A stretch of 47,628 nucleotides of DNA from a virus. Below the pieces are notes generated by a model that was not told where the DNA came from, did not search any database, and was given only the letters and a program-made list of their open reading frames with translations. Location of the stretch: positions 1 through 47,628 of IMG/VR virus record IMGVR_UViG_3300046777_001427; one strand, 5' to 3'. Below are positions 211 through 45,434 of the stretch, piece by piece (within the stretch, counting starts at the first letter, position 1; each line of letters starts with the position of its first letter). The translations under genes were made by a program, and so were the position numbers.

Positions 211-522
211 TTAGTCCTCAAAATCACCATGACAAAAATCAAATTCATTTACTCTAAATACTATTTCAAAACTATCTTTTGATGGATGTTTAGCAGATGC
301 ATTAACAACCAATTTGGTGCCTTTTGTAGCATACTTTTCTATAGTCTCTGCACCGGTATGCCACGCCTCACATTGTATGTAAGTTGGTATTCTATTCTTT
401 TCCCCATTTTTAGTCTTACGATATGTATAAACTACCATGGTGAATTCTGCAAAAACAATATCATTAACTATAGAAACTCTTGGATTTTCCGTCAAGTAAC
501 CTGTAAAAGAACATATATTCAT
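211..522 (-). CDS. SSB-like OB-fold protein (second ssDNA-binding protein)
   Basis: This 103-residue protein has the layout of a bacterial SSB OB-fold core. It opens with MNICSFTGYLTENPRVS, like the usual MN.....GrLt.DPE.r start, followed by an aromatic strand (FAEFTMVVYTYRKT), a basic loop, YIQCEAWHTGAETIEKY and KGTKLVVNASAK. It ends acidic (GDFED), a very short version of the SSB protein-interaction tail. It probably binds ssDNA during replication, as it directly follows the polymerase operon. A second, more typical SSB is encoded at 34.0-34.4 kb. A purine-rich Shine-Dalgarno (AAGGAGAGAGG) precedes the ATG. Confidence 0.7.
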   Translation of the reverse strand: MNICSFTGYLTENPRVSIVNDIVFAEFTMVVYTYRKTKNGEKNRIPTYIQCEAWHTGAETIEKYATKGTKLVVNASAKHPSKDSFEIVFRVNEFDFCHGDFED

Positions 523-573: not shown

Positions 574-2142
574 TCATAGTTCATGAATCTTTTCAATAAT
601 GAAAGATGTATCATTACCACCAACCGATCCGCAAAAGATCAAGTTATTGCCTTCATACAGAATATACTTATATTTTTCTCTTACTTTCGGAAATGCTATT
701 ACGCTGTCTAATATGCATGTGTCATCTTCGATAGTCAAAAATGACATAACTTGCCCCTTTGATTCTCCTTTGTTTATCGTATAATCTGACAACCTTTGAA
801 TATTTGCCACTATACACATATCCTTACCCTTTTTGCCATTTACAATTTCTTTGCAAGTGGTATTAGCAGCAGATGTATCAGAAGTTTCTACCTTTGTCAT
901 AGTTACAGGACAACCTAAAAACTTGATTTCTTGATCTATAATCCAGCTTGGATCATCTTCTAGATCATAGGGTGGATTGTTCAAAAGTTGTATTTCATTT
1001 TCTACTGCTTGTTTTCTATCAGCTTTGCTAGTTCCACCACCCTCTTTCTTGGTGGGTGCCAAATCTCTTAAGCAATCTATGAATGTATTCCATTTTTTAG
1101 TGGTATAGTTGTCTAATATCCAAGATTGCTCTGACTTAGTAAGCGTTCTATATATTTCATAATCATACAACGCCTTATTTCTGCTAACACCGCCTTTGAC
1201 ATTTCTAAAAAATCCTATAGAAGCTAAAGCCTTAAAAGATGTGGAACTTATGTTTCCGCCAATGAATAGTAAGATTTCAAGCCAAGTGAATTTATCAACA
1301 CTTTTTCCTAGATCTTGTTCTGCAACTATGATAGTTTCGATTAACTTGTCGCCCGTTGCACCGGTCAATGATTTGATATCTTTAATACCAAAGTAGATCT
1401 TGCCATTCTTGATATTGAATTTACGATCAAAATTTGTTAAGCTTGGCGTTCTAGTCTCAATATCGAATAGTTTGGCTTCTGATATTAATTCATAGACCTC
1501 TTGATGAGGATCTTGTTTTTCGTTAGCATAGTACAGATATGATAAGAAGAATTCTTTGGTATTGTGAGCCTTAAAATACGCACTCCAATATGAACATACT
1601 GCATATGAAACGCTGTGTGACTTATTGAAAGCATACCGTGAAGACTTTTCAATCCATCCGAAGATTTGCTCTGCCTCATCTTTAGAAACGGTTCCAACAC
1701 GCTCTGCCCCAGCTATGAATGATTTTTTTACTTCATTCATGAGATCAGCTTTTTTCTTTCCAATGGCCTTACGAAGAACGTCAGCTTCCTGTAGGTTGAA
1801 TCCTGCGATTTTTTCAGCTATACGCATAGATTGTTCTTGATACACAAGAACACCATAAGTGGGCTTTAATATATCCTCTAGTGCGGGATGTAAATATGTT
1901 ACTTCTTCTCTACCGTGCTTTCTATCAACATAACGCTGAGTCATGCTTTTTCCATCAACGAAAGCCTTCAAGGTTCCGGGTCTAATAATAGCAATTAGTG
2001 CAGATAATTCTTCTAAGTTAGTTGGTGCTAGTTTTTTAGACCAAGACTTTCCAAGGTTACTTTCTAATTGAAAGATACCCTTAGTTTTACCTTCTGCGAA
2101 CAATTTCCAAGTATCTGCATCATTATAGTCAATATCGATCAT
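574..2142 (-). CDS. dnaE: DNA polymerase III alpha subunit, C-terminal half (fingers and OB fold)
   Basis: The 522-residue protein matches the second half of bacterial DnaE. It starts exactly where the fingers begin (TKGIFQLES near residue 23, IRPG near 53, DRKHGREE near 74, YGVLVYQEQ near 97-105, FNKSHSVSYA near 172). It ends with an OB-fold domain (CIVANIQRLSDYT, MSFLTIEDDT) at about 435-520. The tau-binding C-terminal domain of E. coli DnaE seems absent. The three catalytic aspartates are not here but in the separate gene at 3.2-4.8 kb. Translation has its own Shine-Dalgarno (GAGGA, 6 nt spacing) and the ATG overlaps the HNH stop as ATGA. The two halves presumably associate to give one polymerase. 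Confidence 0.93.
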   Translation of the reverse strand: MIDIDYNDADTWKLFAEGKTKGIFQLESNLGKSWSKKLAPTNLEELSALIAIIRPGTLKAFVDGKSMTQRYVDRKHGREEVTYLHPALEDILKPTYGVLVYQEQSMRIAEKIAGFNLQEADVLRKAIGKKKADLMNEVKKSFIAGAERVGTVSKDEAEQIFGWIEKSSRYAFNKSHSVSYAVCSYWSAYFKAHNTKEFFLSYLYYANEKQDPHQEVYELISEAKLFDIETRTPSLTNFDRKFNIKNGKIYFGIKDIKSLTGATGDKLIETIIVAEQDLGKSVDKFTWLEILLFIGGNISSTSFKALASIGFFRNVKGGVSRNKALYDYEIYRTLTKSEQSWILDNYTTKKWNTFIDCLRDLAPTKKEGGGTSKADRKQAVENEIQLLNNPPYDLEDDPSWIIDQEIKFLGCPVTMTKVETSDTSAANTTCKEIVNGKKGKDMCIVANIQRLSDYTINKGESKGQVMSFLTIEDDTCILDSVIAFPKVREKYKYILYEGNNLIFCGSVGGNDTSFIIEKIHEL

Positions 2143-2504
2143 TTATTCCTCGACAATAAGTAATTCAAAGCTTTTACTAAACCCTCAATATTATCCCCAA
2201 GTTTTCCTATTCCAGAGTTGCATCTATCACAAAGCCACCCTCTAAATTGATTATTAATATGATCATGATCTAGACACCAAGTTGGCTTTCCGGTATTAGG
2301 ATGAATTTTTGGAATCTTTCCACAGCATTCGCATACTAAGGGTTTTTCTGGTGCTAATAGCTTTAATTTCTTTCTTACTAATGTATGTTCTTTTTTACAA
2401 TCCCTACATCTATTATCAACGCCAAGTCTATATCTACTATGGGGAGGGAATTCTGATAGATTCTTAACTTGTTGACAATAAACGCACTTTTGTTCATTTG
2501 ACAT
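2139..2504 (-). CDS. HNH endonuclease (recombination endonuclease VII-like)
   Basis: A small protein of about 121 residues if started at MSNEQKC (2504), the best ATG after the exonuclease gene. It has two CxxC pairs at the N-terminus (CVYCQQ, CRDCKK), a CECCGK knuckle, and the HNH core WCLDHDHINNQFRGWLCDRCN followed by GIGKLGDN. This is the endonuclease VII/HNH arrangement (Zn-bound beta-beta-alpha-metal fold). It probably nicks or cuts DNA, either as a free-standing homing endonuclease or in DNA processing. It lies between the two halves of dnaE and overlaps both neighbours (exonuclease stop 2494; dnaE C-half start 2142), which suggests the polymerase gene was split by mobile-gene insertion. 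Confidence 0.88.
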   Translation of the reverse strand: MSNEQKCVYCQQVKNLSEFPPHSRYRLGVDNRCRDCKKEHTLVRKKLKLLAPEKPLVCECCGKIPKIHPNTGKPTWCLDHDHINNQFRGWLCDRCNSGIGKLGDNIEGLVKALNYLLSRNK

Positions 2505-3174
2505 ATAAGTTTCCATCAGCAAATGCCTTATCAAAATTCATATTCTGATACACTGCACGATGGGTTTTCATAAGCTTTATGAATATATTAGCTTCATCTT
2601 TAACGTCTTGCAACGCATCATGTGCATTATCAAATGATAGCCCCATTCTTTCTCGTAGTGAATCCATACTTATAGATCTAACACTGGGATCACTTTCGGT
2701 CCAAGCAAAAATGCTATCCATAATGTCTATCTTATATACTCTACTAAATAGTTTCTGTTGTTCTCTTTCTTTGTCCCAAGGTCCAAACTCTTTACATAAT
2801 CGATTAATAATATGCATATCAAATCCAAGTATATTGAAACCTACCGGAATGGGATTGTAATATGGATCGCCTTTCCAGTTATATTGGTCAACGAATTTGG
2901 TGAACTTAGTCCATACGGATTTTAAAGATGGTGCTAACTCAAGTTGTTCTCTAGTTTTCTTGGTTATTTTTAGAGCTTCATCTTGTACCGGATCAAATCC
3001 AGCAGCTTTGGCTTTTTCATCATCAAAAATAGGTTTGATTTCACTATTGAATTGCCCCTTTACTGTTAAACTTCTACCATCTAAAGCAATAGCAGCTATT
3101 TGTGTTGGTTGAGTTTTGTGTGGATTTCTACTTCCAGTTTCAAAGTCAAAAATAATATAGTCCCTGTTAGCCAT
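2494..3174 (-). CDS. DnaQ-like DEDDh 3'-5' exonuclease
   Basis: The 226-residue protein has the DEDDh exonuclease motifs in order: ExoI DFETGS near residues 10-15, ExoII GFNILGFDMH near 112-121, and ExoIII HDALQDVKDEA near 182-192 with the catalytic His. This is the fold of polymerase III epsilon, so a proofreading role is likely. The gene sits inside the dnaE locus: its ATG overlaps the stop of the N-terminal polymerase half (TAATGG) and its end overlaps the HNH gene. Proximity supports co-assembly with the split polymerase, but that is inference; RNase T- or oligoribonuclease-like roles remain possible. Confidence 0.9.
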   Translation of the reverse strand: MANRDYIIFDFETGSRNPHKTQPTQIAAIALDGRSLTVKGQFNSEIKPIFDDEKAKAAGFDPVQDEALKITKKTREQLELAPSLKSVWTKFTKFVDQYNWKGDPYYNPIPVGFNILGFDMHIINRLCKEFGPWDKEREQQKLFSRVYKIDIMDSIFAWTESDPSVRSISMDSLRERMGLSFDNAHDALQDVKDEANIFIKLMKTHRAVYQNMNFDKAFADGNLYVK

Positions 3175-4780
3175 TATTTGCTCCTGTTAGTTCTTCAATT
3201 TTCATAATCTTGTCCAAAAGATTAATCCCTAAAACGTCAAACTTTACATGGCCTAACGCTTCTAAATCTGACATTTCTAATCCGGCAATTTTTTCAGATG
3301 ATCCCTTTTGTTTTACCATTGGGCATACTTGTTGTAAAGGTTCGGCAGATATGACCACTCCAGCGGCATGTTTACCTTGAGTTTTAAATGTACCCTCTAT
3401 TTGAATAGCTTGCTCAAAATATTCAGCATACTCTCCTTCTAGCTTACCATCTTCTGATAATCTACAAAAGTCACGTAGTGCATCGGCATTATTTATCAAC
3501 GCCCACTTTATGATAGATCTATCTTCATCATCCATTTCTGCTAATTGGTCTGAAATCTTAGCCTCATCTGGAATGCAATTACTAATAGCATTCATCTCCG
3601 CAAAAGAGCAGGCTTCATTAATACGCAATACTTCTTTTATAGCACTCTTTCCCTGTAGTCTACCAAACGTTAACATTTGACTTACTCTTTCGTGACCATA
3701 CTTGTCTTTTATATATGAGATAATTTCATCACGTTTAGTACCGGGAACGTCCATATCAATGTCTGGTAAAGATATATGATCAGCCGTATTTCGTCCAGCA
3801 TTGTAAAATCGTGCAAATAGAAGGTCAAATTCTATTGGGTCAATTTTTGTAATACCAATTAAGTATGAAATCAAACATCCGGCGGCAGACCCTCTACCGG
3901 GACCAGAAAGCCATCCCATATTGTTAACATGTTGTATAATATCTTGAACAATCAGAAAATATCCGAATAGATTAGCATCTTTAATAACGTCAAATTCTTC
4001 CTTAAATCTACTAAGATACTTCTGCTTATCTTCTTCTTTGGATACTTTATTTTGATCTATCAATATTTTCTTCCAACCCACTCGACATAATTCTTTCAAA
4101 TAGTCTTCTTCTGTTGCACCTTTTGGACATTCAAACTTTGGAAGCATTGGCTTGCTAAGAATATCGTAGTCTTCGCATTGGTCATAAATCTTTTTTAGCT
4201 TAGATGTATCTAAACCCTTAGATTCACTCTTGTTCTTCACATAGAATGAATCTTGCATAAAATATACTAGTTTATCCATATGCTCCTGTGGATACTTCAA
4301 ATCTACACTACCGTCTGGTTTAATACTCTTTTTTATTTTGGGTAGAGTAGTCTTCATATCTGAACATAATAATATTCTATGAAGCTTGGCATCTTCACGA
4401 TTAGTATAATAACTAATAGGTATTGACTCATCTGGAGCATTGAAGATACTAATGAGATTTTTACTGACCTCTAAACTATCAAAATCTCTTGGAAGCTTCC
4501 CATTTTCATCTAACGCTGAAACCATTTCAATCAATTCGTACCAACCCTCTTTATTCTTAGCGAATAATGTAGTGGCATTAAAGGAGCATCCAATAATTGG
4601 CTTTATACCATACTTTTTACAAGCCTTGTAAAAAGCTACTGCTCCAGATAGTGTCTTATAATCACAGATACCACACGCTGGATATCCATTATCCTTACAC
4701 TTTTTAGCTAATTCTTCTGGCTTTGAATAGCCTTTGAGCAAACTGTAATGAGTATAATTCTTCAATGGGAACCAATTCAT
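3167..4780 (-). CDS. dnaE: DNA polymerase III alpha subunit, N-terminal half (PHP and catalytic palm)
   Basis: About 537 residues match the N-terminal half of bacterial DnaE. A PHP domain (NYTHYSLLKGYSKPEELA, CGICDYKTLSGA, IKPIIGCSF) is followed by the palm: GPGRGSAAGCLISYLIGIT, LPDIDMDVPGTKRDE near residue 340 (two catalytic Asp), GKHAAGVVIS, and VKFDVLGINLL near 516 (third Asp). The PHP metal site looks degenerate because the usual first His motif is missing. The protein ends 24 residues after the third Asp, just before the fingers, which are encoded by the gene at 0.57-2.14 kb. ATG 4780 is preferred over 4786 because the AAGG is then 6 nt away. A strong promoter lies upstream. Confidence 0.93.
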   Translation of the reverse strand: MNWFPLKNYTHYSLLKGYSKPEELAKKCKDNGYPACGICDYKTLSGAVAFYKACKKYGIKPIIGCSFNATTLFAKNKEGWYELIEMVSALDENGKLPRDFDSLEVSKNLISIFNAPDESIPISYYTNREDAKLHRILLCSDMKTTLPKIKKSIKPDGSVDLKYPQEHMDKLVYFMQDSFYVKNKSESKGLDTSKLKKIYDQCEDYDILSKPMLPKFECPKGATEEDYLKELCRVGWKKILIDQNKVSKEEDKQKYLSRFKEEFDVIKDANLFGYFLIVQDIIQHVNNMGWLSGPGRGSAAGCLISYLIGITKIDPIEFDLLFARFYNAGRNTADHISLPDIDMDVPGTKRDEIISYIKDKYGHERVSQMLTFGRLQGKSAIKEVLRINEACSFAEMNAISNCIPDEAKISDQLAEMDDEDRSIIKWALINNADALRDFCRLSEDGKLEGEYAEYFEQAIQIEGTFKTQGKHAAGVVISAEPLQQVCPMVKQKGSSEKIAGLEMSDLEALGHVKFDVLGINLLDKIMKIEELTGANNG

Positions 4781-4815
4781 ATGCATCCTTTTTCAAATCA
4801 AGAGATCAACAACTT

Positions 4816-9248: not shown

Positions 9249-9992
9249 TCAAATTCTCCAAAAAGTATTGTTTTTAAGTTCACTACATAAAGTTTCTAGT
9301 GTCATGTTATGATTATCAATGACCATATCAAAATTATGCCAATCAAATTTATCACTATCTAATGATGATTCAGATTCAGAATCACTATTGAACACATTTC
9401 TTGTTAGACGCACCACAATGCCACCATGGTCTTTTATTGATTTGACTTCGTTGGGGAATCTTACATCTGGTATGATTGCCAACTGTGAATCTTCGCTTAC
9501 GACCTTATTTATTGTAGCGTCTACCCACGCTGTTGACTTTATTTTTCTTATTACTTTTGTGCCAAAATGCTCTAAAAATTCTCTATGCGTCATGTATCCA
9601 GACTTGTTATTATCATTATTTGGTATATCTTCCCACTTGATACTTGTTAATTGATTTTTCTGATCATCTGTACCATATACATTATCTGGTTTAAATCCAA
9701 ATAAATTGACACACATATCTTTCAAGTAATCTGCAAAATGGTATACTTTGATGTATGGCCACAATTCTCTCTGTGCATACTCTACAAACGTACTATCTTT
9801 TCTAGTAACATCGAATATACCATAACCGCTAGTTCCAGAAGCATCTTTTGTTTGTATTCCTAGATTACCATTGTTTTCAATGAAAAATTGTTCAATCATT
9901 GCTTTATTCTGTAAAACATCACCATTGATATAGTTTGCAATGGTATTCTTTCCAGACTGTTTTCTACCGGATATACCTATTATTTTAACCAT
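9249..9992 (-). CDS. Deoxynucleoside monophosphate kinase
   Basis: The 247-residue P-loop protein starts VKIIGISGRKQSGKNTIANYI (Walker A, residues ~3-23) and continues with features of phage dNMP kinases such as T4 gp1: HFADYLKDMCVNLFG, GTDDQKN, MTHREFLEHFGTKVIR, AIIPDVRFPNEVKSI and VVRLTR. It should convert dNMPs to dNDPs, working next to the RNR, dUTPase and ThyX encoded elsewhere here. Its stop is directly followed by the nuclease start; its own start overlaps the primase end by 8 bp. Confidence 0.87.
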   Translation of the reverse strand: MVKIIGISGRKQSGKNTIANYINGDVLQNKAMIEQFFIENNGNLGIQTKDASGTSGYGIFDVTRKDSTFVEYAQRELWPYIKVYHFADYLKDMCVNLFGFKPDNVYGTDDQKNQLTSIKWEDIPNNDNNKSGYMTHREFLEHFGTKVIRKIKSTAWVDATINKVVSEDSQLAIIPDVRFPNEVKSIKDHGGIVVRLTRNVFNSDSESESSLDSDKFDWHNFDMVIDNHNMTLETLCSELKNNTFWRI

Positions 9993-11019
9993 TAACTATT
10001 CCCCGCATTTGTGGTATTACTATTTTATTGATTTGTTCTACGCTCATCTCTCCAACATCCTTAGTTGGTATTCTTGGAAAAGAAAGCTTATACATTCTGC
10101 CTAGCTGTCTTTGTAGTTGAACTTTTGCTTCTCTTCCTGCTTGATCATTGTCCATTAGAACTACTATATGTGTAAGTGGCATTTTATACAGTTTGGTTTC
10201 TTGTTCTTTACTCAAAGTTCTTCCAAAAATACTCATAGATTGAGTAATTCCCGCCTCATAAAGTCTCCATACATCTCCTTGTCCCTCGACTAATACCAAG
10301 GATGAGGTTTTCTGTACACCACTTATTGCTCTGTGATAATTGTAAAAAAAGTATCTTTTGTCAAATCCTTTGGGATCTAATAAGAACTTTGGATGTTTGT
10401 AATCTTTAATCGATCTAGCTATACATGCTATTACTTTTTCACCAGTGTCATTATGAATAGGTATAATAGATCTATCATATAATTTGGATGATTTGTCTTT
10501 ACAATCTCCTACTCCAAAATGTATTAATGTTTCTGGCTTGAATCCTCTAGAAAGAAAATATCTTGACGGTAATTCTGAACATATTTCTTCCCTAATAGCT
10601 GGGTAATCTTGATCTAGAGATATACTAGAATTTATGGTATTTACAAGCTTAGAGAAATCGTCTTCTTCAAGTTTGGGCTTAGAAACTACTTTAGATTTAC
10701 CTTGTTTATTTATTCCTAGAAAATTACAAGACCACTTTAGGGCTTCTGAAAAACCAGCATCAACTCCAGTTTCTTTGGATAATGAACCTCTAATGACTCC
10801 AAAAATATCGTTTCTATATTGCTCTTGACAATCTCTAGTCCAACACTTCCATATGCCTTTATCCTTAGAAAAAGAAAAAGCCCTTGGATTATCACTACCA
10901 TCATGAACTGGACAATGACAGTATATATTATCTCCCAAAACCTCGTATTTCATTCCGAGACTTGAAAATACTTCTTCTGCCCGATTGTTTAGATCACTTT
11001 TGATCTTCTTCAAGTCCAT
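9985..11019 (-). CDS. dnaG: DnaG-type primase
   Basis: The 344-residue protein has a CHC2-type zinc finger (CHCPVHDG...WKCWTRDC, residues ~34-65) and a TOPRIM domain with LVLVEGQGDVWRLYEAGI (conserved Glu, ~242-259), SIFGRTLSKEQE and HIVVLMDNDQAGREA (DxD, ~286-300). It is shorter than bacterial DnaG (about 580) and lacks a clear helicase-binding C-terminal domain. It makes primers for lagging-strand synthesis. The gene overlaps the end of dnaB by 26 bp, so the two are expressed together. Confidence 0.92.
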   Translation of the reverse strand: MDLKKIKSDLNNRAEEVFSSLGMKYEVLGDNIYCHCPVHDGSDNPRAFSFSKDKGIWKCWTRDCQEQYRNDIFGVIRGSLSKETGVDAGFSEALKWSCNFLGINKQGKSKVVSKPKLEEDDFSKLVNTINSSISLDQDYPAIREEICSELPSRYFLSRGFKPETLIHFGVGDCKDKSSKLYDRSIIPIHNDTGEKVIACIARSIKDYKHPKFLLDPKGFDKRYFFYNYHRAISGVQKTSSLVLVEGQGDVWRLYEAGITQSMSIFGRTLSKEQETKLYKMPLTHIVVLMDNDQAGREAKVQLQRQLGRMYKLSFPRIPTKDVGEMSVEQINKIVIPQMRGIVNG

Positions 11020-12460
11020 TTATTTTTAACTTGTCTAATGTATCTTGATCTACCATGCCAGTATCTCCTACTGGTTGATTCTTAAATTCATTTCTAGTCT
11101 TTAGTTCTCTTAATTTAGCGTGTGATCCTTGCATAACCATGTTTATGTAATCACCATCGTCTAATCCACCGCCGTGTCTTGATACAATGGGAACTAATTT
11201 TCTATTACCAGCATTTGGACCATCTTCCGCTAACTCTTCTGGCGACTTAGTCTTAAAGATACTAAACGAGGTACATAGCCAAATTAGTCTATCTGATCCG
11301 CTAACGGCGTCTGTACTTTCCTTGGTTATACCATCACGGTTTAGCTGAACGAATGAAAGGCATGGTATGTCGAGTTTAACACAAAGATTATGAAGAGAAG
11401 TAATTTGAAAGCCCAGTGCTTGGTATTCTTGTATATTATTGGTTATAGAGCTAGAAGACATTAGCTTAAGATAGTCATATATGATAAGACAGTTGTTTGT
11501 CTTACCATTGTCATCCATCCTAACATCTTGCATGATCCATCGTCTTATTAGGTTAAGTATTTGCTCAAAAGGCTTTCCTGCAACGCTAACATAACTATAC
11601 GGTATGGACTCAATCTTTTCAATAGCGTCCAATACCTTTTGTCGTTTTTCATCATCATCTGTGAATTTGCCAGTGGCGATTTCGTTGATTGGCACTCCAC
11701 TTATGTTTGCCAACAATCTATTTAAATGATCTTCTTTACTCATCTCAGTATCTAACATTAATACTGGAATTCCTTTAGAAGAAACATTTAAAGCTACATT
11801 ATCGGCAAATACGCTTTTACCAACTTTTGGTCGTGCGGATATAAGATCTACGCACTTTCTTCTTAATCCACCGCCAATAGCTTCATCATACTTATTAAAT
11901 CCTGTAGGTATTCCTATAATATCACATTTATTCTCTTCTAGGAATTCCAAATATTGTTTGGCATCCTTGCCAATTTTTTCTGGAAGATCGCCGCTATCAT
12001 CTTCTCGTAAAAAGTCTGTAACGGGATTTTCTAAGATTTGTATGATTTCATTTATAGACTCTGACCCAGTAACATCATCTATATCCTTATGAATTTTTGC
12101 TGTAAGACCTTTTATCTTACGTGCAAATTCAAACTTCTTCATTTGTATTGCAAAGCTAAACACGTTATCTTTGTTGATCGGGAAGTCCATTAAGGACTTT
12201 ATGTACTTCAACTCTTGATCTGTATTTATGCTTTCAGAAAGATTTAACTGTTCTGATGCAGATAAAATAGATGGTATATCTACTTTCTGGTCATTTAATA
12301 TAACTTTTTCGATGCACTTGAACAATACTTGATTATTGAAGTGACCAAAGCTATCTTGATTAACAACATCAGATATAGACACATAAGCGTCTATACCATG
12401 TTGTAACAATCCAGCTAAAACTGCTCTTTCCGATCCAATATCAGTTAATTTAGTTTCCAT
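10994..12460 (-). CDS. dnaB: DnaB-type replicative helicase
   Basis: About 488 residues from METKLTDIGSERAVLAGLL (12460), the ATG that follows the Zn-finger gene and matches the DnaB N-terminus. The N-terminal helical domain is followed by the RecA-like motor: TGFNKYDEAIGGGLRR, ISARPKVGKSVFAD (Walker A, ~208-221), VLMLDTEMSKEDHLNR, LIIYDYLKLM (Walker B), LCVKLDIPCLSFVQLNRD (sensor and Arg finger region) and GSDRLIWLC. It unwinds the fork and recruits primase, encoded immediately downstream with an overlap. A longer frame back to 12508 uses a non-canonical start inside the upstream gene and is less likely. Confidence 0.93.
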   Translation of the reverse strand: METKLTDIGSERAVLAGLLQHGIDAYVSISDVVNQDSFGHFNNQVLFKCIEKVILNDQKVDIPSILSASEQLNLSESINTDQELKYIKSLMDFPINKDNVFSFAIQMKKFEFARKIKGLTAKIHKDIDDVTGSESINEIIQILENPVTDFLREDDSGDLPEKIGKDAKQYLEFLEENKCDIIGIPTGFNKYDEAIGGGLRRKCVDLISARPKVGKSVFADNVALNVSSKGIPVLMLDTEMSKEDHLNRLLANISGVPINEIATGKFTDDDEKRQKVLDAIEKIESIPYSYVSVAGKPFEQILNLIRRWIMQDVRMDDNGKTNNCLIIYDYLKLMSSSSITNNIQEYQALGFQITSLHNLCVKLDIPCLSFVQLNRDGITKESTDAVSGSDRLIWLCTSFSIFKTKSPEELAEDGPNAGNRKLVPIVSRHGGGLDDGDYINMVMQGSHAKLRELKTRNEFKNQPVGDTGMVDQDTLDKLKINGLEEDQK

Positions 12461-12461
12461 A

Positions 12462-12881
12462 CTACTTTCCGGTGCATCGATTACAGCGATAATAGTCGCC
12501 GTGAACAAATCGTGAGTCCTCTTTAAATGTTTTACCGCAAACGTGACACTCTACCTCAACTCTTTTATGTGGCTGGCGACGGCGAGGAGTTTTTTCAAAC
12601 TGGGGAGTTTCTACATCTCTAAATTCGCCCGTATCTTGCCACTCATTCTTTCTAGCTCTCACTGGTTCTTTTCTCCTAGTATTAGAAGTATTTTCCTGCT
12701 TAAACATTGTAAAATCTTCATTCGCACTTGCAGGCGGTGCGGAAGACTGTATCTTTTTTATGCTTTCCTTCTTTACTTCTTCTGGAACGCTTGGTAATGT
12801 TTGGCTATCGCCAACTAATGCCTTTAACAAGGCTTGTTTTTGCTCATCGTTGAGCATGTTTATGAAATCGTTCATACTCAT
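12462..12881 (-). CDS. Zinc-ribbon protein of unknown function next to dnaB
   Basis: The 139-residue protein has a short helical N-terminus (MSMNDFINMLNDEQKQALLKAL), a long polar low-complexity middle rich in Lys, Arg, Thr and Glu, and a C-terminal zinc ribbon CHVCGK...YRCNRC (residues ~114-136). Its start overlaps the preceding gene as ATGA and its stop is 1 bp before the dnaB start. The position suggests an accessory replication protein, for example a helicase loader or ssDNA-binding adaptor, but no family is recognised. Confidence 0.6.
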   Translation of the reverse strand: MSMNDFINMLNDEQKQALLKALVGDSQTLPSVPEEVKKESIKKIQSSAPPASANEDFTMFKQENTSNTRRKEPVRARKNEWQDTGEFRDVETPQFEKTPRRRQPHKRVEVECHVCGKTFKEDSRFVHGDYYRCNRCTGK

Positions 12882-37257: not shown

Positions 37258-38124
37258 TCAAACACTAACTGTTTGGAGTCTCTTTGAAAGAACCTTGTTA
37301 AGTCTCTCCATCTTTGCTGTAACTTCAACAATCCATTCGCGGTTACGCTTCTTACGATTAAAATGATTGACATCATCACTAGTAAGGTGAACGACCTTAT
37401 CAAAAATTGTATTGAATTCAGATACTACTTCATATCGACAAGTGCGAAGCTTTTGAAACTTATGATCAGATGGTACACTCACAACGTCGCGGGGATTGAC
37501 CTTGCAAATCATAAGACGGTTTCCACCATCATTGTCACCATCAAAATCAATTCCACCATAACTCTTTGCGTAGTCAATTGCACCGACATGAAGACCAGCA
37601 CCGCAACCGTTATTACGATTACTATCTACCTTACTACGAATAACTTCACATACAGAACCAATTCTGTTATCGAAAGTACCAGAATAAATGTCCTTATAAT
37701 CTTCACGAACAGCCTTGTATGCCAAGAAGCATCCATCACTAGTAATTGGCATATTCTTGTTCTCCATAAAATCAAACAGTTCAATTACCGCATGGTCAGA
37801 TGGATTCTGACTAAGATTGTCAAGGAAGTTAAGCATAGGTTCAAAAGGAAATCCCTGCTTAATCATATCCAGAATAGTACCAGTAAACATATCTGGCATC
37901 TTAATACCATCCCATGTTAGCGATCCGTCATTGCAGTTAACATATCCTTCGCAAAATGCGTTAACATGAGAAATGATATCGTAACATGCTTCAAAATACT
38001 CGACGTTATTATTCTTAAGGTGAGTGATAAGCTTATCATAATTCGGATGCGACTTACTAAAAGTATAAGTCTGCTCACCCACAATCGCCGTTACTCCACC
38101 GTCATTAGCAATAATGTACTTCAT
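37258..38124 (-). CDS. rIIB: rIIB-like protein
   Basis: The 288-residue protein is recognisable as rIIB: KYIIANDGGVTAIVGEQTYTFSK at the start, HVNAFCEGYVNCNDGSLTWDG, FPFEPMLNFLDNLSQNPSD, FDFMENKNMPITSDGCFLAYKAVR, GAGLHVGAIDYAKSYGG and NPRDVVSVPSDHKFQKLRTCRYEV. Its partner rIIA lies 28 bp upstream. In T4, rIIA/rIIB affect lysis inhibition and protect against the lambda RexAB exclusion system; the biochemical role is still unclear. The gene is flanked by a TATAAT/SD module and a strong terminator. Confidence 0.93.
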   Translation of the reverse strand: MKYIIANDGGVTAIVGEQTYTFSKSHPNYDKLITHLKNNNVEYFEACYDIISHVNAFCEGYVNCNDGSLTWDGIKMPDMFTGTILDMIKQGFPFEPMLNFLDNLSQNPSDHAVIELFDFMENKNMPITSDGCFLAYKAVREDYKDIYSGTFDNRIGSVCEVIRSKVDSNRNNGCGAGLHVGAIDYAKSYGGIDFDGDNDGGNRLMICKVNPRDVVSVPSDHKFQKLRTCRYEVVSEFNTIFDKVVHLTSDDVNHFNRKKRNREWIVEVTAKMERLNKVLSKRLQTVSV

Positions 38125-38143
38125 TGTTTGTCTCCTTTATCTT

Positions 38144-38149
38144 ATTATA
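38144..38149 (-). promoter_or_regulatory. -10-like TATAAT just before rIIB
   Basis: The minus strand reads TATAATAAGATAAAGGAGA directly before the rIIB start, almost identical to the module before the SSB-like gene at 0.54 kb. No consensus -35 is seen upstream. It may give rIIB its own transcript or may be a fixed initiation module. Confidence 0.4.
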
Positions 38150-38152
38150 TCT

Positions 38153-40270
38153 TTACATGAGGTTAAGAACATTCTGAGCGTGAAGTCCACGTTCAACAGA
38201 ATCAATATAATCTGCAACAACTTTCCTATCAGTATCGCTCCAGACATGACCAAGAAGCCTGAGAACAGGATACTTGTTCATTTCAGAATCAAACTGCTTA
38301 CTGAAACGATGGTCAGGCTTGTTTTCGCTAAGATCAACACTATTAACTCCGGGGAAAATCTTAGAGAATTCATGAATGATTCTCATATCATTAGACATAG
38401 CTTCAATCTTGGACGAATATTCCTTATGTTCAAAATAAACCTTCTTAGCAAGATTATCAGTCTGAGTTATTTTAAGGGTATCAATCCACTTGATGTTATG
38501 AAGAGACAACGGAACAGATCGGAAAACATCTTTGATATTATCCTTGTTGGCTTCCACCGCAGTATTAAATACCTTAGTAAGAATAGTCTCTCCGCTGAAC
38601 CAGTTATCACGCTCATCAAGCTTCCTATTTTTAATCACAGAAGGCTTAACAAGATAAAAGGTAGCATCACCAATCATATCTGGATACTTCTCATATGCGA
38701 AGGCAATAGCATTAGCAAGATAATTTTCATCAGTAGACCTATATCCGATGCTAACGTCACCCTTTGATTCCGAGAAGTAATGTGCATTTTCGTACTTTAC
38801 ACTCATATTGCAAATTTCAAACTTACCAGTTTCAACATTGAATACCTTGGCTTGAATAGCAGGACCACCACCAACGCCACTAGAGGTACGATTATACTCA
38901 ACCTTATCAAGCATAGAGGTTGGGATAATGTCACTGATCGTGGCATCGCCCATTATACTGAGCAAACGGCAGTTGTCAAGAGTCTCACCATCGCGGAGCT
39001 TATAGATGTAATGAACTTGATGACCACTCTGATCTTTCATATACTGACGAATACGACTAATGCCACCACGCGGAAGATTATCTACAAAGAACTTGGTATT
39101 ATCTTGAAAAACCATACGTTCTACGCTTTGCTTAACATCAATTTTGGAACGATAAGCAGACTTTTCGGCACAATTGATTTCAATCAAATTCTTGACATTA
39201 ATATATTCCCCCGCAACGCTATCAAAAATCTTATGATCATTCCAAGAGATAGACTTCTGGAGCGATTCAACTGCGGATCGAATAGACGAACACTGATTGC
39301 TAATCTGTACATACTTCATACGAGCCTTGAACAGCGACGGTTGATTAGCGATTTGCTCCTCAATCTTAGCGGCAATATCATCAGCAATATCATTGATAAT
39401 ACCCATAATATTCTTACGAGTATCCTTGCTGTACGAGAGTGCTTCTCGACTAGGAGTAATATCAACATCTCCAATATTTACAAAAATACGCAAGCCGCTG
39501 GAGTACTCAATAAACTTATGCTCTTTATCAGTATTCTGACACAGTTGATTTGCAGTGAGAGGATATGCAATTTGACCCATAATAATCAGATTATCATCAG
39601 CATCAGCATCATAATACCAATTATCTCCAGCAAGAACCTTATTAACCTTCTTGAAGGAAATAGATTGACCAATGAAGTTAGGCTTCGTATTAAAAAATTC
39701 ATAGACCTTGACCGCTTCATGGTAGAAACGATGAATATCGTACTCGTTAACGTTAATAGAAACCTTGATACCATTAGCTTCATTGGTATCAAAAGTATCC
39801 ATCAAAGAAAAAACTGGATTACCATCCTCATCCTTGAAAGCATTATACACACGACGCTGACCATCAAGATAAGCTTCAACCGTGAAACTATCAGAATATG
39901 CGAACGGAGCCTTGCTACCAAGACCAAGGCAACCAACAGCATCATTGCTATTGTTTCTGGTGCTACGAAAATACGTAGTATAAAGCTGCATACAATCTTC
40001 GTGATTCATGCTAGTGCCATAGTCACGAATAAAGAAAGTAGGCTCAAGTCGAGTAGGAATATGCACATCAAATGGCACATCCTTCTTACCAGCTTCAACA
40101 TGAGAATCGTAAGCATTAGTAGAAAGCTCACGAACAACCGCTAGAATTTTGTTAGAATACAGACCGTCAGAAAGGATAAAGAACGCCTTAGACGATGCTT
40201 CGATACTAAACTTCGACTCTTCAAACTGACCAGACTTCTCAATAGTGTGCGTACCAGCGTGAAGTTTCAT
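38153..40270 (-). CDS. rIIA: rIIA-like protein (GHKL ATPase-type N-terminus)
   Basis: The 705-residue protein is close in length to T4 rIIA (725). The first 250 residues form a GHKL/Hsp90-like ATP-binding domain: VRELSTNAYDSHVEAGK (N box, ~47-63), FFIRDYGTSMNHEDCM (D.G box, ~74-89) and GCLGLGSKAPFAYSDSFTV (~107-125, G box). DGDVDITPSREALSY-like residues follow near 265-280 (VDITPSREALSY). It acts with rIIB. It has a strong own promoter at 40.3 kb. A 454-codon frame on the opposite strand is a shadow. Confidence 0.93.
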   Translation of the reverse strand: MKLHAGTHTIEKSGQFEESKFSIEASSKAFFILSDGLYSNKILAVVRELSTNAYDSHVEAGKKDVPFDVHIPTRLEPTFFIRDYGTSMNHEDCMQLYTTYFRSTRNNSNDAVGCLGLGSKAPFAYSDSFTVEAYLDGQRRVYNAFKDEDGNPVFSLMDTFDTNEANGIKVSINVNEYDIHRFYHEAVKVYEFFNTKPNFIGQSISFKKVNKVLAGDNWYYDADADDNLIIMGQIAYPLTANQLCQNTDKEHKFIEYSSGLRIFVNIGDVDITPSREALSYSKDTRKNIMGIINDIADDIAAKIEEQIANQPSLFKARMKYVQISNQCSSIRSAVESLQKSISWNDHKIFDSVAGEYINVKNLIEINCAEKSAYRSKIDVKQSVERMVFQDNTKFFVDNLPRGGISRIRQYMKDQSGHQVHYIYKLRDGETLDNCRLLSIMGDATISDIIPTSMLDKVEYNRTSSGVGGGPAIQAKVFNVETGKFEICNMSVKYENAHYFSESKGDVSIGYRSTDENYLANAIAFAYEKYPDMIGDATFYLVKPSVIKNRKLDERDNWFSGETILTKVFNTAVEANKDNIKDVFRSVPLSLHNIKWIDTLKITQTDNLAKKVYFEHKEYSSKIEAMSNDMRIIHEFSKIFPGVNSVDLSENKPDHRFSKQFDSEMNKYPVLRLLGHVWSDTDRKVVADYIDSVERGLHAQNVLNLM

Positions 40271-45064: not shown

Positions 45065-45083
45065 AAAGTTTAGCATTGTTAAG

Positions 45084-45434
45084 TGGAGGCGGCGAGAGTC
45101 GAACTCGCGTCCAGAATAATTTCAATATAAACCTCTACATCCTTAGTTAATTGTTATCGTACAGTTAACAAAACTAACAGAATTATCTGTGTCAGATTGA
45201 GTACAATCATCATTCCTATTTATGTTTGGTAGGACTACCATATCCGATTATCGGAGTCAGCATGATTGGGCAATACGGTTCATGCACCGCACTCTTACCT
45301 AACTAGGTCAGGCAGCGAGAGCGAGAGTCGAAACTTCGCCAATTAACATTTCAATCGACTTTTATACTGGCCGGTCGATTAACCAGTGGATGCCATCTAT
45401 ATTTACGTTTACCTGTCGAAACCTTTACGCCCCC
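45084..45434 (-). ncRNA. ssrA: tmRNA (ssrA), tag GEVSTLALAA
   Basis: The 351-nt minus-strand RNA begins GGGGGCG...GGTTTCGACAGG, the conserved tmRNA 5' end, and ends GCGAG-TTCGACT-CTCGC (T-arm) plus CGCCTCC. The acceptor stem pairs GGGGGCG with CGCCUCC, with G3-U70, the alanyl-tRNA synthetase identity pair. The tag frame runs from GGC (45340) to TGA (45308), giving G-E-V-S-T-L-A-L-A-A, ending in the usual ALAA degron. No CCA is encoded. It rescues stalled ribosomes by trans-translation. The 5' end directly abuts the thioredoxin stop codon, so it must be cut out of a longer transcript. Confidence 0.93.

Follow-up and report, generated by a model that had tools for sequence, protein, structure and literature searches.

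The 47,628-base virus record IMGVR_UViG_3300046777_001427 (hereafter the window, whose coordinates are counted from its first base) carries dnaE, the gene of the alpha subunit of DNA polymerase III, as two separate genes, one encoding the PHP domain, palm and thumb (N-half) and the other the fingers, the helix-hairpin-helix region and the OB fold (C-half). The same break was found in 225 viral loci, and it very probably reflects an ancient fission of dnaE that gave a large clade of uncultivated tailed phages a replicative polymerase made of two proteins assembling without a peptide bond. The genes lie on the minus strand in the order DnaE N-half, exonuclease, HNH/endonuclease VII gene and DnaE C-half, followed by a gene similar to those of single-stranded DNA-binding proteins (SSB-like). 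The polymerase block is composed as follows.

3167..4786, minus strand: DnaE N-half (degenerate PHP, palm, thumb), from open reading frame (ORF), Pfam, AlphaFold2 and Foldseek; likely start at the ATG at 4780
3167..3174, minus strand: 8-nucleotide overlap of the N-half gene end and the exonuclease gene start, with AGGAG just 5' of the exonuclease ATG
2494..3174, minus strand: DnaQ/epsilon-like DEDDh 3'-5' exonuclease (RNase_T), from profile matches; between the two DnaE halves in every unique relative
2494..2504, minus strand: 11-nucleotide overlap of the exonuclease and HNH genes, equal to the exonuclease/C-half overlap of uninterrupted relatives
2139..2504, minus strand: HNH/endonuclease VII-family gene, putative free-standing homing endonuclease (Pfam Endonuclease_7, 8.6e-14), at the exonuclease/C-half junction
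2139..2142, minus strand: 4-nucleotide ATGA overlap of the HNH stop and the C-half start, with GAGGA just 5'
574..2142, minus strand: DnaE C-half (fingers, helix-hairpin-helix region, OB fold), from ORF, Pfam, AlphaFold2 and Foldseek
211..522, minus strand: SSB-like gene adjoining the polymerase block (PHROG 44, 1.7e-8)

The initial annotation of the window had proposed that dnaE is divided into a PHP and palm gene and a gene running from the fingers to the OB fold, and the ORFs, their coordinates and the Pfam matches bear this out. The N-half matches PHP (1.9e-19) and the whole of the DNA_pol3_alpha model (6.1e-69, 1-260 of 260). It holds the palm motif GPGRGS and the three catalytic Asp residues in conserved alignment columns, with D342, D344 and D346 in PDIDMD and the third catalytic Asp, D517, in KFDVLG. 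The start previously placed at 4780 is the likelier one, as its ATG has a purine-rich stretch (AAAAAGGATGCATATG) that is better placed than that for a start at 4786. The C-half matches DNA_pol3_finger (1.3e-48) and, weakly, HHH_6, and contains the motifs GIFQLES and FNKSHS, whose H176 aligns to the steric gate H760 of E. coli. No C-terminal tau-binding domain was seen in the C-half.

Two details of the break had to be corrected. The N-half ends 22 residues past D517 and not 24, and the C-half, described as beginning right at the fingers with GIFQLES, starts about 22 residues before this motif, in the palm-fingers linker. Against E. coli alpha the N-half aligned to residue 565-566 and continues for 12 extra residues, stopping at about residue 578, and residue 6 of the C-half aligned to 591, which places its beginning at about residue 586. 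Compared with intact DnaE only some 5-8 variable linker residues are absent from the junction and the conserved segments are all present, so the claim that no conserved stretch had been lost there stands.

Each half was also modelled alone with AlphaFold2, which gave a pLDDT of 92.5 and a pTM of 0.90 for the N-half and a pLDDT of 92.3 and a pTM of 0.83 for the C-half; the top Foldseek matches of both models in the PDB were DnaE structures only. In the E. coli enzyme one site comprises the three Asp residues of the palm together with H760 and S759 of the fingers, and a pocket of the palm accommodates S759 (PMC8485763). Since the catalytic Asp residues and the steric-gate His of the window are encoded on different chains, polymerisation should need both. 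C-family polymerases have been stated, for all members, to carry PHP, palm, thumb and fingers always on one chain (PMC3666897), whereas these core domains were found in separate ORFs in 225 of the 225 viral loci.

The alignment to full DnaE proteins and the search of viral sequences for the same junction, both suggested in the initial annotation, were carried out. The first viral scan gave 80 relatives with 46-96% identity, in which the genes for the N-half, the exonuclease and the C-half are separate and in that order wherever all parts are present. Together with two wider viral scans with alignments, the total came to 225 loci down to about 41% identity, and none of these is fused (0/225), each scan having kept its 80 best loci, beyond which more distant intact relatives are possible in the collection. 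After removal of duplicates the order N-half, exonuclease, C-half was kept in all the complete loci (183/183), and the same split arrangement is present in L151 and L152, two phage-like contigs from bacterial or archaeal genome bins. The intact dnaE in related genomes that had been named as contrary evidence was thus found in none of the 225 loci. Among the comparators, 80 bacterial and phage DnaE are encoded by one ORF across the junction, and in a contig of a bacterial metagenome-assembled genome (L192) dnaE is broken, apparently by a frameshift.

An intact relative was sought in the viral and genome scans, and the intact matches listed were all from bacteria or distant phages, with at most about 45% identity over the conserved fingers part. 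No member of the same clade was found among annotated phages, the best match having about 38% identity over half the query. A tree built from 35 split and 22 intact sequences places all the split ones on the same side of one branch (SH-aLRT 100, stem 0.98), and for this reason the fission appears, as far as this sample goes, to be ancient and to have happened once.

Some sister branches have further peculiarities around the break. A small gene is present between the N-half and the exonuclease in several loci (L297:5123-5302, L116:5018-5197, L099:5080-5307 and others), encoding either a conserved protein of about 59 amino acids (...VRxSCCxxxNAQ...) or an unrelated one of about 75 amino acids (...YQVWSD...NIDDAVDKF.ELK). 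Moreover, many sister-branch C-halves start with a CGCxF extension that is absent from intact DnaE. It is possible that these small genes and the CGCxF extension are assembly factors.

Purifying selection on both halves is strong. When the window was compared with relatives of about 89-96% identity, nonsynonymous divergence (dN) was 0.02-0.07 and synonymous divergence (dS) 0.46-2.2 in both halves, and dN/dS was about 0.02-0.08 for the N-half, the exonuclease and the C-half; these values are limited to close relatives, dS being saturated in more distant ones. The initial annotation had allowed for an assembly artefact or a pseudogene. Because the same junction recurs in the 225 viral loci (183 of them unique and complete) and dN/dS is well below 0.1, chance, a pseudogene and an assembly error are excluded. 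The pairwise distances of the N-half and the C-half correlate (r = 0.93 over 110 loci), as is expected of linked, co-inherited genes. In addition, 25 contigs of 95-223 kb contain exactly one palm and one fingers domain each, the palm being in two pieces by further insertion in 2 of them, and no other polymerase of the PolA, PolB or PolC type was found in them; the absence of PolA and PolB matches is provisional, since the contigs may be incomplete.

Besides the exonuclease, the break in the window contains the HNH/endonuclease VII gene, which the initial annotation did not mention. In uninterrupted relatives the last 11 nucleotides of the exonuclease gene commonly overlap the C-half gene and include its ATG, as in L027 (TTATATGTCAAATGAATATGAAGAC). 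The counterpart of this junction in the window reads TTATATGTCAAATGAACAAAAG, and the same ATG there starts the HNH protein (MSNEQ vs MSNEY), the C-half having a new ATG that overlaps the HNH stop. The HNH gene is missing from many relatives, and L004, L007, L010, L027 and L096 provide examples of such empty sites. Among the 183 unique loci the N-half/exonuclease junction is abutting or overlapping in 64, the exonuclease/C-half junction in 131 and both in 37, and the 37 loci in which the three genes adjoin with no insert indicate that the HNH gene arrived afterwards. Judged from these junctions, it is a secondary, free-standing insert at an existing gene boundary that took over the start codon of the C-half. 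As a cause of the split the HNH gene is ruled out, because many relatives that do not have it are split too. Its homing activity is suggested by its family and its position.

The two junctions are insertion hot spots across the relatives. Between the N-half and the exonuclease the inserts include unassigned ORFs as well as an FkbM-type methyltransferase, and several HNH types are among those between the exonuclease and the C-half; a N-half/exonuclease overlap (spacing of -8 or -11 nucleotides) recurs in many relatives. Inside the N-half, a split intein is found at the palm motif, GPGRG|SAAG, in L046 (2428-3626), L047 (the same), L040 (3174-3600) and L120 (about 4000-4290), with an IntN of about 90 amino acids and an IntC of about 35 amino acids ending in ...VEGLGVHN, and the polymerase is consequently in three genes there. 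In L046 and L047 a TnsA/DUF7487-like endonuclease ORF lies between the intein halves. Likewise, an ORF that has LAGLIDADG-like motifs breaks the palm of the N-half near PDID in L294, L302 and L305 (3403-4169); for L294 and L302 Rfam gave no intron match.

Replicative polymerases and other essential phage enzymes encoded in pieces have been described before. Gene 43 is split into gp43A and gp43B in the T4-related Aeromonas phages 25 and 44RR, and the products of phage 25 co-purify and the polymerase is active (PMC2988022). As in the window, a phage replicative polymerase is encoded in two parts, and in phage 25 a homing endonuclease occupies the gap, but gp43 belongs to family B and has an unrelated fold, its split is known from few phages and the gap has no exonuclease gene. 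The split NrdA of Aeromonas phage Aeh1 is fully functional as two chains (PMC2988022) and is also an essential phage enzyme with an HNH endonuclease gene in the split. It is, however, a ribonucleotide reductase whose split was made by the endonuclease, whereas the split of the window's clade is ancient and its HNH gene secondary. Compared with both, the split described here concerns the C family, is fixed in a large clade and is independent of an endonuclease.

A split phage polymerase III is not wholly new. In group 2.2 jumbo phages a minimal alpha subunit occurs as two standalone proteins, described as a part that binds nucleoside triphosphates and a part that binds Mg and the DNA template, which were proposed to reconstitute the enzyme (PMC7824862). 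These have no other polymerase III domains, their genes are far apart and a family B polymerase is present alongside, whereas the window's clade has PHP and the OB fold, its genes are in one block and PolB was not matched in the 25 long contigs. In Corynebacterium phage P1201, gp59 and gp58 (NC_009816, 44915-48275, minus strand) encode DnaE in two overlapping ORFs broken in the same palm-fingers linker, with GTG and a strong Shine-Dalgarno sequence. There the overlap is of 29 nucleotides, no gene lies between and relatives such as Darwin (about 60% identity) are intact; the break in P1201 is therefore either a sequencing error or a separate event of recent date. Bacillus phage G also has DnaE in several ORFs (gp329, gp331 and gp339) with a homing endonuclease gene among them, but its breaks are inside the palm and just before KFDILG, and gp329 has an intein that ends at the same GPGRG|SAAG site as the split intein of L040, L046, L047 and L120. 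The pieces of phage G look intron- or intein-interrupted. Cyanobacterial DnaE is also encoded by two genes, but its split intein joins the products at a position other than that of the break in the window. Intein halves flank the cyanobacterial break and none are present at the N-half/C-half junction of the window. Intein splitting of cyanobacterial DnaE has been noted (PMC3919608). Short standalone viral DnaE C-terminal proteins that match the fold of the C-half are present in BFVD (A0A3G2KGE5 of Mycobacterium phage Fowlmouth, 463 amino acids, A0A6J5NYG0 and A0A6J5RLW8), and these may be further DnaE splits. We found no description of the split of this clade in the open-access literature, subscription papers being outside that scope.

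Some observations weigh against a two-protein polymerase. The long contigs may be incomplete and another polymerase could lie off their ends, the host polymerase III might replicate these phages, and the Shine-Dalgarno-like motif before the C-half is only modestly enriched in the family as a whole (47/184 vs about 19 expected). We nevertheless consider it improbable that the two halves are not a polymerase, one or both having other roles while the host enzyme replicates the phage. The metal ligands of PHP are indeed lost in the branch of the window, where PLHxH is present in 0/98 and TDHG in 1/98 of the loci with a short N-half, as against 61/77 and 73/77 in the relatives with a long one. This loss is normal where a separate proofreading exonuclease exists (PMC3666897), and it fits the exonuclease as a proofreading partner. 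Moreover the catalytic Asp residues, GPGRGS and FNKSH are conserved, the N-half and the C-half occur together in all complete loci, with one of each and no other PolA or PolB per long contig, and the phage has its own SSB-like protein, primase and helicase, the last two encoded as follows.

9985-11019, minus strand: DNA primase, a nearby replication gene giving context to the polymerase block
10994-12508, minus strand: DnaB-like helicase, a nearby replication gene in the same context

That some unrecognised element rejoins the halves covalently, whether by RNA splicing or protein trans-splicing, seems very improbable, even though a split intein does occur in the N-half of four relatives and essential genes of other phages, among them polymerase genes, are interrupted by group I introns and endonucleases (PMC12363816). 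There is no room for such an element, since the gap of uninterrupted loci is taken up by the conserved exonuclease, which overlaps its neighbours by about 8-23 nucleotides, and Pfam revealed no Hint/intein domain in either half, in agreement with the lack of intein motifs at the junction noted in the initial annotation. Neither the window nor any of 17 related loci had an Rfam intron match up to the gathering score, and the polymerase block had none at E<=1; the test is not fully sensitive, since it was also negative for phage G, which plausibly has an intron. A self-splicing intron at the break was rejected, there being no Rfam match and the gap being fully coding in uninterrupted loci, and a frameshift or bypass fusing the three products is incompatible with the inserted genes of many relatives. 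We give next to no credence to recent damage, in which a now decaying gene would have been broken by the HNH gene or through an error of sequencing or assembly. A homing-type endonuclease does sit in the gap and P1201, with its intact relatives, shows that a simple frame break at the linker can occur, but many relatives that have no HNH gene share the position of the split, identities across the clade range from about 41% to 96% and selection on the halves is strong.

The two-protein polymerase is thus strongly favoured. We infer physical assembly, activity, translational coupling and partnership with the exonuclease; assembly is supported by analogy with the split gp43 and the NrdA of Aeh1. 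One ancient fission would have cut dnaE in the palm-fingers linker, and the gene of the proofreading exonuclease would now lie in the break. An endonuclease or an intein-linked insertion may have broken dnaE first, the exonuclease gene filling the gap later, or the exonuclease gene itself may have inserted into the linker. No intermediate between the intact and the split arrangement was found among the loci examined. The split intein and the LAGLIDADG-like ORF in the N-halves of relatives make it clear that such elements invade this gene, and P1201 shows that a simple frame change can break it at the same linker, which therefore looks like a tolerant breakpoint. The two chains would be made side by side from one operon of overlapping genes, probably with translational coupling, and would fold independently and dock non-covalently to give a C-family active site of the normal kind, the exonuclease being an epsilon-like partner. 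The N-half would supply the metal-binding Asp residues and the C-half the nucleotide-gripping O-helix and the steric-gate His, so that neither would polymerise alone. In the window the HNH homing-type endonuclease later entered the exonuclease/C-half junction, with the C-half receiving a new start.

This phage clade thus appears to rely on a C-family polymerase whose active site is shared between two chains. It offers a natural system for the study of palm-fingers communication, of the role of the exonuclease in holding the enzyme together and of the permanence of gene fission. For annotation it is relevant that each half alone would pass for a truncated DnaE. A bolder and rather unlikely version is that N-half, exonuclease and C-half constitute an obligate three-chain core formed co-translationally from one operon, with the exonuclease at the palm-fingers seam in place of the covalent link. 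If true, this would be a new C-family replicase architecture, one fixed in a diverse phage clade throughout its history.

Outside the polymerase block the window also encodes a transfer-messenger RNA at 45081-45434 on the minus strand (Rfam, 111.8 bits, full model), beside a tRNA-Ser; ARAGORN did not detect the transfer-messenger RNA. Homologues of rIIA and rIIB are located at 37258-40270 on the minus strand, and two long open frames run antisense to them on the plus strand, at 38780-40144 (454 amino acids) and at 37363-37920 (185 amino acids).

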